The notes below the pieces were generated by a model. It was not told where the DNA came from. It did no database searches and saw only the letters and a list, made by a program, of their open reading frames with translations. This document shows, in pieces, positions 15,692 through 21,619 of a stretch of DNA of 43,434 bases. The stretch is from Azospirillaceae bacterium (lineage in GTDB: Bacteria; Pseudomonadota; Alphaproteobacteria; Azospirillales; Azospirillaceae), in the NCBI GenBank assembly GCA_028277115.1, contig JANQHG010000278.1, positions 1-43,434 of the forward strand, in the 5' to 3' direction. The first letter of the stretch is position 1. Each line of letters opens with the position of its first letter. The position numbers and the translations under genes are program-made.

Positions 15692-15921
15692 GCGCCCAAC
15701 ATCAACATATGGTAGGATAGCCCGCAAGGGAATCCACCAGATAGGCCAAACTCAATTCCGATTCGCTTGTTTGCTGACCAGTCCTTAGATCAGCGTGACC
15801 AAAGGCATTGTGTCATCGGTTATCGTCGTGGTCTCCGAGTGACCGGCTCCGTGTGGCAACTGACCCCGACCTGAAGTCCCGCGACGGCACCCCCTCGCGG
15901 TCATCCGATACTGGAGCGCGT
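15692..15921. other. Intergenic region upstream of the spondin-domain gene
   Basis: Together with 15306-15369 this completes the 686-nt gap between glnB and the spondin gene. It is less GC-rich than its surroundings around 15700-15800 (for example acatatggtaggatagc and ccaaactcaattccgattcg), consistent with foreign or degraded DNA. No gene was recognised. Confidence 0.5.
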
Positions 15922-16590
15922 ATGATGTCTTGCACCTCTACCTACCTTCGTCTCGGCATGATCGGGCTTTTGCTGGCGCTGCCGACGACGCCCGCCACCG
16001 CGGCGGAGACCGCCACATTCGAGCTGACGCTCGAGGTGACGTGGAGTGCGGCAACCACCCCGTGGGAGTTCCCGTCCAACGCCCATCTCTCCCGTATCAT
16101 CGGGGTCACACATAACAGCCGCTACACGCTGTTCCGGGATGGCCTGACGGCGTCGAGCGGACTGGAGCTGGTCGCCGAAAACGGACGGGGCTCGATCCTC
16201 GATGCCGAGTTTGCCGAGGCGCGGCGAAAAAGGCGGGTCGGACCGGTCTTTGCCGGTCCTGACCTGGCGTCCGTGCCTGGAACCGTCAGCACCGTGTTCG
16301 AGGCGACCAGCGCCCATCCGCTGCTGTCGTTCGTCACCATGCTGGCGCCGAGCCCCGACTGGTTCACCGGTGCGGGCGACATCCGCCTGTTGGCGGACGG
16401 CGCCTGGATCGATCAGATCGAGGTACCGCTTTGGGTCTGGGATTGCGGGACCGACGACGGCACGACCTACGACGCGCCCAACGCCGACACCCAACCCCGG
16501 CAGTCGATCCGCCTGCTTGCGACCCCGCATGTCTTGTCGTCGGATCGGCTGGTGCCCGCGGGGGTCGCCCGCATTCGCCGGCGCTCGTAG
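15922..16590 (+). CDS. Secreted spondin-domain protein
   Basis: Encodes 222 residues. A signal peptide (about 1-28, ending ATAAE) is followed by a single spondin domain (Spond_N). Hallmarks visible are HLSRIIGVTHN (55-65), the stretch RDGLTASSGLELVAENG, the very typical MLAPSPDWFTG (140-150) and WDCGTDDGTTY (173-183). In the animal F-spondin family this fold is an adhesive beta-sandwich that binds calcium; bacterial single-domain versions are exported or anchored proteins of unknown role. The ATG at 15922 has TGGAG six bases upstream; a second ATG follows immediately. It stands alone, with the transposase remnant upstream and a DMT transporter downstream. Confidence 0.88.
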   Translation: MMSCTSTYLRLGMIGLLLALPTTPATAAETATFELTLEVTWSAATTPWEFPSNAHLSRIIGVTHNSRYTLFRDGLTASSGLELVAENGRGSILDAEFAEARRKRRVGPVFAGPDLASVPGTVSTVFEATSAHPLLSFVTMLAPSPDWFTGAGDIRLLADGAWIDQIEVPLWVWDCGTDDGTTYDAPNADTQPRQSIRLLATPHVLSSDRLVPAGVARIRRRS

Positions 16591-16964: not shown

Positions 16965-17918
16965 ATGATGTCGGTCTCGGCGCGCGAGATCTCGCGCGGT
17001 AAGGGGATATTATTGGCATTTGTTTGCCTGTCGATCCTGGGGGCCATGCCGGTAATCGCGAACAGCCGGCCCATCGACTTCGATGCCCATAGCTTTGCCT
17101 TGTTCTTGTCGGCCTGGCAGGTGTTGTTCGCGTTGCCGCTGTTTCTGGGCGAGCTGAGGTCGCGCGACCGCGGCATTTTCGCCGCCGATCTGGCGCCGCA
17201 GGCCCAGCGCCGGACCCTTTTGATCATTCTCGGCACCGGCGCGATCTTCGGGCTGTCCACGTATGTTTATGTGCTCGCGGTCGAAAAGGCCGGCGCGGTC
17301 GGCGCGGCGATCGCGATCCAGGCCTACCCCTTGTTCGCGATCTTGTGGGAGACGCTGTTTCTCAAACGCCGCAAAACCGCGGCGGAGTTGGGGCTGACCT
17401 GCGTGTTGATCGCGACCATGGTGTTCTTGTTGACCAAGGGCACCTGGCGGGTCGACGCGATATCCCTTTGGTTCGGGTTCGCGCTGTTGATCCCGTTTTT
17501 GTGGAGCATCGCCCACGTCGTCATCAAGGAGGTGCTGGACGCCACCCCGATCACCCCGGCCCAGGTTACCTTGTTCCGGGTCGTGACCTCGACCGTGGTG
17601 CTGGCGGTCGCGCTGGTCGCGCTCGCAGATACCGATCGCCTGTGGGCGACCGCGGTCTCGATCGACCTGCAAAAGTTCGCGGTGCTGATGGGTTTGGTCT
17701 ACTATCTTGAGCTGATTTGCTGGTTCTCTGCGGTGCGCCACATCCCGGTGTCGTTGGCCAGCTCGATCACCGTGCCGGCCCCGGCCTTGACCATGGTTCT
17801 GGCGATCCTGGTGCTCGGCGACCGGGTCGCGCCGTACCAGGTGGGGGCGATCGGCGTCGTGATGGCGACGATCTACGGCCTTTTGCTCGCCGGGCGCAGG
17901 CGCGCCGTGCCGGCCTGA
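16965..17918 (+). CDS. DMT-superfamily (EamA) transporter
   Basis: A 317-residue protein with about ten hydrophobic segments in two EamA-like halves (roughly 15-155 and 165-310). Typical features are the end of the first half, AIAIQAYPLFAILWETLFLKRRKT, and of the second, ASSITVPAPALTMVLAILVL followed by GDRV. Family members export metabolites such as amino acids; the substrate is not known here. The two ATGs at 16965 and 16968 follow CAGGTGCAATC. Its stop codon lies in the loop of a 9-bp hairpin (17907-17928) at the convergent boundary with the ion-channel gene. Confidence 0.88.
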   Translation: MMSVSAREISRGKGILLAFVCLSILGAMPVIANSRPIDFDAHSFALFLSAWQVLFALPLFLGELRSRDRGIFAADLAPQAQRRTLLIILGTGAIFGLSTYVYVLAVEKAGAVGAAIAIQAYPLFAILWETLFLKRRKTAAELGLTCVLIATMVFLLTKGTWRVDAISLWFGFALLIPFLWSIAHVVIKEVLDATPITPAQVTLFRVVTSTVVLAVALVALADTDRLWATAVSIDLQKFAVLMGLVYYLELICWFSAVRHIPVSLASSITVPAPALTMVLAILVLGDRVAPYQVGAIGVVMATIYGLLLAGRRRAVPA

Positions 17919-17950: not shown

Positions 17951-20203
17951 TCAACCGCCAAACGCCGCCGCCGCGGTGAGCGCCACGTTGGCCAGGATCA
18001 CCGCGGCGAACAGCGCTGCGGCGAACCAACTCTCGAACCGCCGGCTGAAGCCGAGGCGGTCGGACGCGACCACCGCGACCACCAGCGCCAGCATCACGAC
18101 ATAGGCGGTGATGAAGTAATGATCGATCCGGAGCAGATAGCCGACCGGCGGCAGGGTCGACATCTGCGCCAAGTGGAACACCAAGACACTGATCAACGCC
18201 GAGGTCACCAGGGAGATCCGCGCCTCGAACTTCGAGGCGTCGATCAAAAACGCCAGAAAGGCGATGCAAAACATCGCGCCGAGCGGCAGGAACACCGCCC
18301 AGATATAGGGTGCGATCAGCCGTTTGAGCCGCACCTGGGTCGCGAACACGGAAAACTCGGGCCCGCGGCTGCCCGCGGCCAGCTCCGGGCGACCGAAGCT
18401 CGAGTTGATCGTGTAGGTCGCGCCATAGCTGTCGCTGCCCTCGAACAGCCATTCGTTCGGATAGATCGCGGTGATGCTGTTCGGGCTCAAGCGGCCGGCA
18501 TCGCGCACCAGCATCAGGCTGTCGGCGTGGCGGGTCCGGTGGGCCAGCCGCAACTCGAGTGCTTGATGGTCGAACGGAAACGCGCGCAGATCGTAGTTGG
18601 CGACGAACCGGCTCTTCACCTTGTAGAGCGCATAGGTCACCCCGTCCGTGGTCACCCGGTCCAGCTCGTCGCGGACATTTTCTTCCGAGAAGATCTCGTT
18701 GACGAAGGTGATCTCGTCGGGTTCGAGGTCGCCGGACCAGCGCAGCCATAAAAACCCTTCAAGATCGAAGCGTTGGCCACGGATGTCGACGTCATTGACC
18801 CGGTAGACGTCGAGCCCGGCATAGACCACCTGGATTTCGTGAAACGGCCGGCGGCCAATCGTCACCACCCCGGCGGGCGGACGGCCGCGCTCGATCATCG
18901 CCAAGGCCGCCGGGGCGACCACCCGGCGCAGTTGGCGGAACTCGGGCCGGAACCGGCCGTCGGCGATCCGTGCAAACAGGGTCGGACGCACCGCCGCCCC
19001 GAAGGCGTCGAAGTAAAACCGACCGGTCAGGCCCTCGACCGCGCGCGCCGGTCGGTCGATCGCCGCGAGATGGCGGCGCACCCGACCGCGGTCGGCGCCG
19101 ACCGCGGCGACCGCATCGACCACCAGGCGGGCGGCATCATAGGCGAACGGCACCCAGGGCGACGGCCAGGCGTCGTCGGTCTCGGCCGGCGCCGGGTCAT
19201 GGCCGTCGGTTTGGCCGAGTGCGTGCCGAAGCCGGTGGACGAACCTGACCGTGTCGAGCGACGCGGTTTCATACAGAAACGGCGTTGCCACCGTCAGACC
19301 GGCGGTCGCGCCGTCCAGCCCGGCAATCACGCCGTCGTAGGCGAAATCCTCGGGCCCGATCACCGGCCCGTCGAAGCCGTGACGGCGCAACGCGCGGACC
19401 ACCGCAATGCCGTCGCCGGCGTGGCTCATCACCGCGAGCGCGTCGGGCACCGCAACGTCGAGCATGGCGCCAAGGTCGCGGGCCAAAACCGTGTCGGCAA
19501 ACCCGCCGTCCGGAAACACGTGGCGGGCCGGAACCGCCATGCCGAGCCGCAGCGCGGTGCGTTGGACCGCATCGGCCAGGCTGGTTCCATACGCATCGTT
19601 GCCGTGGACGATCGCGAGCCGACGCACACCTTTGATCCGGTGAAGCCAGGTCGCGATCATCTCGCCTTCGGTGCCGGTTTCGAAATTGAGGCTGAACAGC
19701 CATGGGCTCGCCCGGGTGACCTCGGGACTGCTCGCCGACGGGGTCAGCAAGGGCACGCCGGCGCGATCATAGATCTCGGCGGTGGCGAGCGCGACCGACG
19801 AGAACAGGTGCCCGACCACCGCGACCACCCGCGGGTCGGCGACCAGGACCTCGGCATTGGCGCGGGCCCGGTCGGCGTCGTTGGCGTCGTCGAGCACGAT
19901 CGCCTCGACCGTGCGGCCGTTCGTCGCGTCGGTGGCATTGACCGATTCGACCAGCAGCTCGAGCGCCGCCGCCATTGCCCGACCCTCGTCGGCAAACGCG
20001 CCGCTGAGCCCGACCGACAGCCCGATCGCCACCGTTTCCGCCGCGGCCGGGCGGGCCGGGCCGACCGAGCTTGCGAGCGCGCCGATCAGGACCGCGACGA
20101 CCGCCGCCGCCGCGGCCCGCCACCGACCGCGGCGGGCGTCCGCCGCGCCTGGTTCCCAAGACCCGGACGCCCCCGACCGTCGTCCACCCCTGTTCGGCGT
20201 CAT
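17951..20203 (-). CDS. Periplasmic-binding-protein / pentameric ligand-gated ion channel fusion
   Basis: A 750-residue protein. After a signal/anchor (about 30-56) comes a LivK-type binding domain (about 57-430) with PLLTPSASSPEVT (151-163), the segment that holds the alpha-amino-acid ligand in this family, and GNDAYGTSLAD. A pLGIC extracellular domain (about 453-630) follows, with FLWLRWSGDLEPDE and the Pro-loop signature DLRAFPFDHQ (538-547). Then come four membrane helices: M1 632-655, M2 662-684, M3 693-715, M4 725-748. Aligned from memory with the GLIC channel, Glu660 falls at the -2' position, Ser664 at 2', Ser668 at 6', Ile671 at 9', and LPP follows M2; this predicts a cation-selective channel. 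The ATG at 20203 has AAGGGATCGG upstream. Divergent from an amidinotransferase gene. Confidence 0.93.
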   Translation of the reverse strand: MTPNRGGRRSGASGSWEPGAADARRGRWRAAAAAVVAVLIGALASSVGPARPAAAETVAIGLSVGLSGAFADEGRAMAAALELLVESVNATDATNGRTVEAIVLDDANDADRARANAEVLVADPRVVAVVGHLFSSVALATAEIYDRAGVPLLTPSASSPEVTRASPWLFSLNFETGTEGEMIATWLHRIKGVRRLAIVHGNDAYGTSLADAVQRTALRLGMAVPARHVFPDGGFADTVLARDLGAMLDVAVPDALAVMSHAGDGIAVVRALRRHGFDGPVIGPEDFAYDGVIAGLDGATAGLTVATPFLYETASLDTVRFVHRLRHALGQTDGHDPAPAETDDAWPSPWVPFAYDAARLVVDAVAAVGADRGRVRRHLAAIDRPARAVEGLTGRFYFDAFGAAVRPTLFARIADGRFRPEFRQLRRVVAPAALAMIERGRPPAGVVTIGRRPFHEIQVVYAGLDVYRVNDVDIRGQRFDLEGFLWLRWSGDLEPDEITFVNEIFSEENVRDELDRVTTDGVTYALYKVKSRFVANYDLRAFPFDHQALELRLAHRTRHADSLMLVRDAGRLSPNSITAIYPNEWLFEGSDSYGATYTINSSFGRPELAAGSRGPEFSVFATQVRLKRLIAPYIWAVFLPLGAMFCIAFLAFLIDASKFEARISLVTSALISVLVFHLAQMSTLPPVGYLLRIDHYFITAYVVMLALVVAVVASDRLGFSRRFESWFAAALFAAVILANVALTAAAAFGG

Positions 20204-20503: not shown

Positions 20504-21619
20504 ATGTCCTCATCGAGTGTACCGATGCCGGCAGCACCGATTTCACAAGCGGTCCCGGTCAACAGCCACACCGAATGGGATTTGCTGGAAGAAGTGATCG
20601 TCGGCCGTGCCGACCATGCTTGCGTGCCGGAATGGCATGTCGCGATCGAGGCGACGATGCCGAAGAAGCACCATACCTTCTTTAAGACCCACGGCGGCCG
20701 CCCGTTTCCGGCCGAGCTGTTGGCGGCGGCGGCGCGCGAGCTCGACGGGCTGTGCGCCCGGCTTACGTCGGAGGGGGTGACCGTGCGCCGCCCCGATCCG
20801 GTCGATTGGTCGGTGCCGTTCTCGACCCCGGCGTTCGGGCCGACCCCGGGCCTGTACGGCGCGATGCCGCGCGACGTCTTATTGGTGGTCGCGGACGAGA
20901 TCATCGAGGCACCGATGGCGTGGCGCTGCCGGTATTTCGAAAGCCGCGCCTATCGCCGCCTGGTCAAGGAGTATTTCCACGCCGGCGCACGCTGGACCGC
21001 AGCCCCCAAGCCGGAGCTCGGCGACGCGACCTTTCGCGACGATCTGACCGGCGGCGAGTTCGACGTCTATGCCGACCGGTCTGCCACCACCGAAGCCGAA
21101 CCGGTGTTCGACGCCGCCGATTTCTGCCGGGTCGGCCGCGACATCTTCTGCCAGGTCAGCCAGGTGACCAACCGTTTCGGCATCGCTTGGCTCGCCCGTC
21201 ACCTGGGTCCCGGCTACCGCGTCCATGTTCTGCCGTTCGACGACCCGAACGCCATGCACATCGACGCGAGCTTCGTGCCGCTGGCGCCCGGTCGGCTGTT
21301 GATCAACCCGGCGCGGGTGACCGCCGAGACCCTGCCGGCGATGTTCCGGTCCTGGGAGATCCTGGTCGCGCCCGAGCCGACCGTGCCCGACAGCCACCCG
21401 TTCTACTTCACCAGCAAATGGCTGTCGGTCAACGTGCTTAGCCTCGACGAGAAACGGGTGGTGGTCGAGGCGGCGGAACAGCCGATGATCGATCTCCTGA
21501 AACACCACGGCTTCGAACCGATCCCGGTGCCGTTCCGCAACTTCGGCAGCCTGGGCGGCGCGTTCCACTGCGCGACCGCGGACGTCCGCCGCCGCGGTAC
21601 CCTCGAGAGCTTTTTCTGA
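20504..21619 (+). CDS. Amidinotransferase (glycine/inosamine amidinotransferase family)
   Basis: A 371-residue enzyme closely resembling arginine:glycine amidinotransferase, which moves the amidino group of arginine to an amine acceptor, giving ornithine and a guanidino product. Family signatures: SHTEWDLLEEVIVG (21-34), EPVFDAADFCRVGRDIF (199-215), DPNAMHIDASF (247-257) and GGAFHCATADVRRRGTL (351-367). The catalytic set is Cys356 (nucleophile), His252 and an Asp of the FDAAD motif (203 or 206). The acceptor may be glycine, another amino acid, or an aminocyclitol. ATG at 20504 with GGAAGGA upstream. It heads a same-strand set with an SDR enzyme 58 nt downstream and is divergent from the channel gene. 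Confidence 0.9.
   Translation: MSSSSVPMPAAPISQAVPVNSHTEWDLLEEVIVGRADHACVPEWHVAIEATMPKKHHTFFKTHGGRPFPAELLAAAARELDGLCARLTSEGVTVRRPDPVDWSVPFSTPAFGPTPGLYGAMPRDVLLVVADEIIEAPMAWRCRYFESRAYRRLVKEYFHAGARWTAAPKPELGDATFRDDLTGGEFDVYADRSATTEAEPVFDAADFCRVGRDIFCQVSQVTNRFGIAWLARHLGPGYRVHVLPFDDPNAMHIDASFVPLAPGRLLINPARVTAETLPAMFRSWEILVAPEPTVPDSHPFYFTSKWLSVNVLSLDEKRVVVEAAEQPMIDLLKHHGFEPIPVPFRNFGSLGGAFHCATADVRRRGTLESFF

Follow-up and report, generated by a model that had tools for sequence, protein, structure and literature searches.

Within a 43,434-nucleotide stretch of DNA from an Azospirillaceae bacterium (the whole stretch analysed, hereafter the window), a single gene joins a LivK-type periplasmic binding domain (PBP-I), an extracellular domain (ECD) of the Cys-loop-receptor type and the pore of a pentameric ligand-gated ion channel (pLGIC). 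PBP-I and ECD quite probably form a portable two-layer receptor, of which the window protein represents the branch with a pLGIC pore and which bacteria have joined to an unrelated MscS pore as well. With the same confidence, we read the MscS branch as one that sometimes adds a cytoplasmic cyclic-nucleotide domain, that has its Pro-loop rewritten and that is often encoded in type I secretion clusters. The sharing of the module between both types of protein is observed directly. pLGICs are pentameric and MscS channels are heptameric. Should this reading be correct, a Cys-loop-type ECD works outside the pLGIC family, and a receptor has been naturally transplanted between channel superfamilies of different symmetry. 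The receptor shared by two unrelated pores is more important than the window gene as a clean example of an architecture described in 2005. Natural relatives with the same receptor and a different pore would allow signalling from the ECD to the pore to be tested, including the effect of fivefold versus sevenfold symmetry.

The complete CDS of the PBP-I and pLGIC fusion, identified as an ORF and by its homologues, occupies positions 17951–20203 of the minus strand, with its ATG at 20203 and its stop codon at 17951, and encodes 750 amino acids in a single unbroken frame. The interval given in the earlier note stands, but the strand needs correction, as the ORF runs on the minus strand and frame 1 of the plus strand is interrupted by a stop. 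The window genome is a draft in 285 contigs, and the fusion could in principle be an artefact of a frameshift, of the assembly or of mis-annotation. We give this explanation practically no credit: the frame is unbroken, the GC content by codon position is normal (0.70/0.51/0.86, similar to that of four neighbouring genes) and the identical fusion architecture occurs in independent genomes. In genome G008, an uninterrupted frame of 782 amino acids has 48% identity to residues 23–744 of the window protein. Since the codon-position GC resembles that of the neighbours and this relative is uninterrupted, the fusion is not due to chance; uninterrupted homologues rule out an assembly or frameshift artefact.

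Domain order, fold and homology could be read directly from the window protein. The N-terminal signal sequence (residues 1–54; 20042–20203, minus strand), recognised from sequence and hydropathy, is hydrophobic at residues 30–48 and Ala-rich before Glu55, with a predicted cleavage site. The PBP-I (LivK-type) periplasmic binding domain (residues 57–428; 18920–20035, minus strand) is supported by Pfam and Foldseek, the ECD beta-sandwich (residues 446–627; 18323–18868, minus strand) by phmmer and AlphaFold2, and the pore domain with M1–M4 (residues 630–748; 17960–18316, minus strand) by HMMER, AlphaFold2 and hydropathy. The Pro-loop FPFDHQ, already pointed out in the earlier note, is confirmed in the sequence at residues 542–547 (18563–18580, minus strand). 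The ECD is cysteine-free, the sole cysteine of the protein being residue 646; the cysteine pair that forms the disulfide of animal Cys-loop receptors is thus absent from it.

Pfam assigned Peripla_BP_6 to residues 57–416 (E 2.2e-43), together with ANF_receptor (4.4e-14), and detected neither an MscS domain nor a PBP-II family in the window protein, the pore being that of a pLGIC instead of an insert of the ionotropic glutamate receptor type. This HMM search, proposed in the earlier note as a check, is clear for the binding domain but not for the channel: Neur_chan_memb matched residues 643–712 with an E of 0.0096 and 16.6 bits, under the Pfam cut-off of 28.1, which counts against the assignment. 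The NCBIfam models LIC (3.7e-10) and LGIC_1 (2.1e-6) are both far under their curated cut-offs. The comparison of the C-terminal 305 amino acids with PDB sequences does back a pLGIC. The closest pLGICs are 9ftg (4.1e-9) and 6v4a (4.9e-9), the latter of which we take to be DeCLIC; both give the identical alignment to the pLGIC part, with shifted numbering, and their similarity is significant over ECD and transmembrane domain. GLIC-type entries follow from 4.1e-8, and 3uq4, presumably ELIC, has 4.7e-8.

An AlphaFold2 model of the window protein was obtained from a 49-row alignment, the other 48 rows of which span PBP-I and ECD only. Its mean pLDDT is 78.5. The PBP fold (57–428) has high confidence, and the ECD beta-sandwich has pLDDT values mostly of 62–91, but of 34–49 at residues 571–610. 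Helices are modelled at residues 630–654, 656–682, 690–717 and 721–748, and the low confidence of this transmembrane part (42–72 per ten-residue block) counts against it. When the whole model was submitted to Foldseek, the best match was 3hut (7.9e-28), followed by LivJ/LivK types; the 50 matches listed comprise only PBP-I proteins and no pLGIC, which also counts against the assignment. Pfam, phmmer and AlphaFold2 together nevertheless support what had previously been proposed, a LivK-type binding protein joined to a full pLGIC in one frame, and the four helices M1–M4 are found both in the model, at low confidence, and in the hydropathy.

Several known systems share parts of this architecture. 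GLIC and ELIC, which to our knowledge have no N-terminal sensor domain, have the ECD and M1–M4 in common with the window protein, and GLIC also the Glu at -2'. LivJ/LivK-type proteins (1z15, 3hut, 4gnr) show the same fold and the same three polar anchors, but they are free partners of ABC transporters, whereas the PBP-I of the window is fused to a channel. The likeness to MscS-family channels, including the cyclic-nucleotide-binding ones, is established only through relatives in which an MS_channel_2nd pore follows PBP-I and ECD. Ionotropic glutamate receptors likewise carry a PBP-I amino-terminal domain on a channel; unlike the window protein, they have the pore inserted in a PBP-II domain, according to excerpts of PMC549065. 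DeCLIC is also a pLGIC with a large periplasmic N-terminal domain (NTD), and the earlier note had drawn that parallel for the extra domain. It does not extend to the domain itself, as the DeCLIC NTD consists of two jelly-roll lobes in the excerpted description (PMC12664993) and that of the window is a PBP-I.

The architecture as such is not new. M. magnetotacticum and B. japonicum have PBP-I fused to ART-LGIC according to excerpts of Tasneem et al. (2005; PMC549065), who compare these proteins to NMDA and metabotropic glutamate receptors and suggest that they form homopentamers involved in chemotaxis. In those fusions, as in the window protein, an N-terminal PBP-I, a Cys-loop-type ECD and a four-TM channel domain are combined in one protein; as described, the architectures are essentially alike. 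Since such fusions were described then, the window protein is a further example of the 2005 architecture. The word MscS is absent from the text of that article (PMC549065). A 2022 review states, in the part cited here, that the N-terminal domains of prokaryotes are in many cases similar to periplasmic binding proteins (PMC9221113), and an excerpted 2025 paper singles out DeCLIC as the one pLGIC whose NTD has been characterised in part (PMC12664993).

When 99 relatives were searched with the window protein, the 48% relative in G008 and two more full PBP-channels (28–31%, in G015 and G020) were obtained. The ECD profile A1, which also picks up plain pLGICs, had matches in 43 of the 82 genomes of the order, and in at least 8 of 385 genomes of the class and at least 44 of 398 of the phylum, the last two counts being lower bounds as at most seven candidates were scored per genome. 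The 130 distinct ECD-bearing frames collected correspond to 129 genes (L154 and L159 are cut from a single gene), and 12 of them contain the full set of PBP-I, ECD and pLGIC pore. Twenty further regions added 15 frames with all three domains (L209–L223) and one cut by the region end (L226). The full PBP-I and pLGIC proteins total 27, including the window protein and L002, that is, the 48% relative and 25 others besides the window protein. They were aligned with L225 in a 28-row alignment (A7), in which Peripla_BP_6 is present in 28/28 rows, Neur_chan_memb in 16/28 and Neur_chan_LBD in 9/28 at 0.05. A PxD Pro-loop occurs in all 27 channels (26 by a scripted pattern, plus one WPFD row). L225 (L225:1866-4052), which has no pLGIC pore and is left out of the channel count, consists of PBP-I and ECD, with neither M2 nor Pro-loop and with one C-terminal TM segment; it can be read as a poreless receptor or as a broken MscS-type gene.

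Anchor residues and pore signature are likewise directly visible in the window protein. The putative ligand anchors S135, S158 and E285 (spanning 19349–19801, minus strand) align by HMMER with S79, T102 and E226 of LIVBP (1z15), which presumably hold the carboxylate and amino groups of the amino acid. The corresponding columns of A7 contain Ser/Thr in 24/28 rows, Ser/Thr in 24/28 and Glu/Asp in 22/28, so most of the PBP-channel group keeps an amino-acid-type pocket. An amino-acid-like ligand, as had been suggested from the sequence, is therefore plausible for the window protein. The ligand need not be uniform across the group, because the 48% relative has Ala in place of S135 and Asp in place of E285, and because MscS-type proteins, L003 for instance, depart from the anchors as well. 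As for the pore, the residues at 658–664 read KFEARIS, and HMMER aligns EARISLV with EANVTLV of GLIC. An acidic residue, Glu660 (18224–18226, minus strand), thus stands at -2', the inner end of M2, as the earlier note had placed it, which makes cation selectivity a plausible prediction for this channel. This prediction should not be extended to the group as a whole, since an acid occupies that column in just 4 of the 27 A7 channels (window, L002, L208 and L209), the remainder having Ala, Ser, Met, Pro or Gly. Arg is found at 0' in 24/28 rows, the window protein among them.

The MscS branch was encountered in the same search of 99 relatives. After four channels, the best matches to the window protein end by residue 632 and lie in frames of 1033–1157 amino acids, five of which contain PBP-I followed by an MscS domain according to Pfam. 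A profile of the MscS-type ECDs (A2) was used to scan named genomes and gave 79 loci, including Azospirillum, Skermanella, Arenibaculum, Paramagnetospirillum and Magnetococcales, as well as Desulfamplus magnetovallimortis, Methylococcaceae, Gallionellaceae and others. The fusions of PBP-I, Cys-loop-type ECD and MscS (L003, L006-L020, L071-L149; e.g. L139:3684-6668 and L229:2983-6051) come from many Pseudomonadota and from Desulfamplus. Among the 130 ECD-bearing frames, a sample picked by ECD hits that contains many close strains and is not a census, 93 are uncut PBP-I, ECD and MscS proteins and 10 more are cut; the rest comprise 4 cut frames with PBP-I and ECD only, 1 without a PBP match and 10 without PBP and MscS. 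Pfam recognised MS_channel_2nd in 48/48 and Peripla_BP_6 in 47/48 of the MscS-type proteins scanned. The fusion is also present in complete replicons, for example pAB510b of Azospirillum sp. B510 and those of A. brasilense Sp 7; the B510 protein, WP_012976639.1, is annotated as an ABC transporter substrate-binding protein. In L053-L057 and L070, from relatives of Azospirillum, a CRP-like C-terminal domain, judged by eye, follows MscS, and in the one member scanned (L054:1367-4870) Pfam found cNMP_binding (7.1e-18); in these proteins two ligand inputs would potentially converge on one pore. We know of no MscS channel with a Cys-loop-type ECD, and no such fusion was found in a full-text collection that covers only a minority of subscription papers and preprints.

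The identification of the middle domain of the MscS-type proteins as a Cys-loop-type ECD relies on a mixed profile, on local pLGIC matches of A2 and on the fold; the sequence evidence is thin, and the predicted structure decides. The A2 profile gave no pLGIC match among PDB sequences, which counts against it, but the mixed ECD profile matched GLIC (4.8e-4), and A2 itself matches five of seven plain pLGIC frames of a small local set (2e-9 to 1.2e-5). The middle domain of the D. magnetovallimortis protein, modelled with AlphaFold2 from 55 rows (pLDDT 81.2), is a beta-sandwich for which 49 of the 50 Foldseek matches listed are AChBP, nAChR or GLIC, the other one being the conotoxin complex entry 7txf, of similar length. 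The best match has 6.7e-9 and probability 1.00, and 1103 matches reach 1e-3 or better. TM-scores by query length are 0.49–0.58 and rmsd values 4.8–13.1 in the matches listed, and the domain is accordingly a diverged relative of the Cys-loop type. The coupling loop agrees with the type of pore: PxD, present in 27/27 channels, occurs in 0/48 MscS-type rows, most of which have a YG or FG pair there.

The history of the pair was then examined in trees of its two parts. For the PBP tree (56 rows), MscS rows were thinned to 30 at 58% identity, and L181, a fragment of an MscS-type gene, was left out of the set of free binding proteins; the ECD core tree has 50 rows, with L156 and L188 left out. In the PBP tree, a branch (99/98) separates the 14 free binding proteins, which were taken from hits to the window protein, from the other rows. 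The channels L004, L005, L153 and L178 fall with the MscS rows, and the MscS label has to change two or more times. The window branch (L001, L002 and L182) and the Magnetococcia-type channels fall with the free proteins (95/86), and because of this position the window branch may have gained its PBP-I separately. The ECD core tree sets the module-bearing proteins, including that of the window, apart from eight plain pLGICs (99/94), and the MscS rows form one clade (99/98). Nearest to them, with modest support (93/83, 92/26), are again L004, L005, L153 and L178. That both trees share the same nearest channels would be predicted for a receptor that moved in one piece. A single clade of PBP-channels is not rejected for the ECD (p-AU 0.276).

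The best overall explanation, which we hold to be likely, is that the window protein is a subunit of a ligand-gated cation channel of the inner membrane that has two sensor layers stacked in the periplasm and an amino-acid-like ligand, the pair of layers being the receptor module. Ligand binding, the pentamer, the direction of gating, ion selectivity and the role of the protein are what we infer here. The channel would most probably be homopentameric. The LivK-type PBP-I clamshell would bind an amino-acid-like solute, its closure would be passed to the Cys-loop-type beta-sandwich beneath, and the ECD would open the M2 pore through the FPFD loop. In general, the clamshell would most likely act by way of the ECD on the pore to which it is joined, pLGIC or MscS.

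Two other functions of the PBP-I have to be weighed. The agonist might sit between subunits, in the classical pocket of the ECD, and the PBP-I would then only capture or concentrate the ligand or tune the gating in the manner of the DeCLIC NTD. This agrees with the proposal, in excerpts of Tasneem et al., that fused domains concentrate or sense ligands which then bind the LBD (PMC549065), and with the excerpted finding that the DeCLIC NTD appears to speed gating (PMC12664993). We consider it rather unlikely, as the three LIVBP anchors are kept in the window protein and mostly in the group, and as PBP-I accompanies the ECD on an unrelated pore; the kept anchors and the joint travel of the pair suggest that PBP-I and ECD together are the receptor. 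It is even less probable that the PBP-I has lost the binding of small molecules and docks a partner protein or holds the oligomer together. Pocket residues do vary in some branches, but the fold is well preserved, and the window protein, like most of the others, has the polar anchors.

The genes around the fusion do not inform further on the receptor. Its divergent neighbour (20504–21619, plus strand) is a very close homologue of L-arginine:glycine amidinotransferase (AGAT; E 5.9e-125 to PDB structures, 1jdx), beyond which lie an SDR, a cupin-8 protein and GatA. The convergent neighbour is an EamA-family transporter by Pfam (16965–17918, plus strand), adjoined by a Spondin_N-domain protein (15808–16590, plus strand). 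Eight window neighbours were compared by tblastn with 110 loci (31 around channel-type hits and 79 of MscS type), with one weak SDR match (36%, L065) as the result. No conserved neighbourhood of the channel gene was found in these loci, many of which have flanks of 1–3 kb, and this counts against the overall explanation given above. A guanidino ligand, envisaged in the earlier note, would fit the adjacent AGAT homologue; we rejected it, as no AGAT homologue was found in the 110 loci, which with many flanks of only 1–3 kb is weak evidence of absence.

The MscS-type genes do have recurrent neighbours. In B510, the gene shares an overlap with an ABC gene, after which comes a type I secretion adaptor of the HlyD family, and a VCBS-domain protein is divergently encoded (L229:2983-9000). 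Among the 79 named MscS-type loci (L071-L149), tblastn detected one or both of the two genes in 52, with ABC in 51, HlyD in 49 and the two together in 48; 96 of the 100 secretion-gene matches are on the same strand. Neither gene lies within the available stretch, in some cases short or cut, of the other 27 loci. ABC and HlyD secretion genes were found in none of the 30 channel-type loci, including the window, many of which have shorter flanks. As background, HlyD occurs at 39 places in 20 whole genomes (0–7 per genome), from which about 0.5% would be expected in a stretch of 10.7 kb. Three neighbours tested (in L139, L133 and L118) are outer-membrane efflux proteins. The MscS branch points to MscS channels that are controlled by a ligand and linked to type I secretion, in Azospirillum and in several magnetotactic lineages. 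In two methanotroph MAGs, the MscS-type gene has downstream of it two frames matching in size and order (L135:7075-9128 and L146:7067-9150); those of L135 encode an SPFH/Band-7 protein and another, free PBP-I protein.
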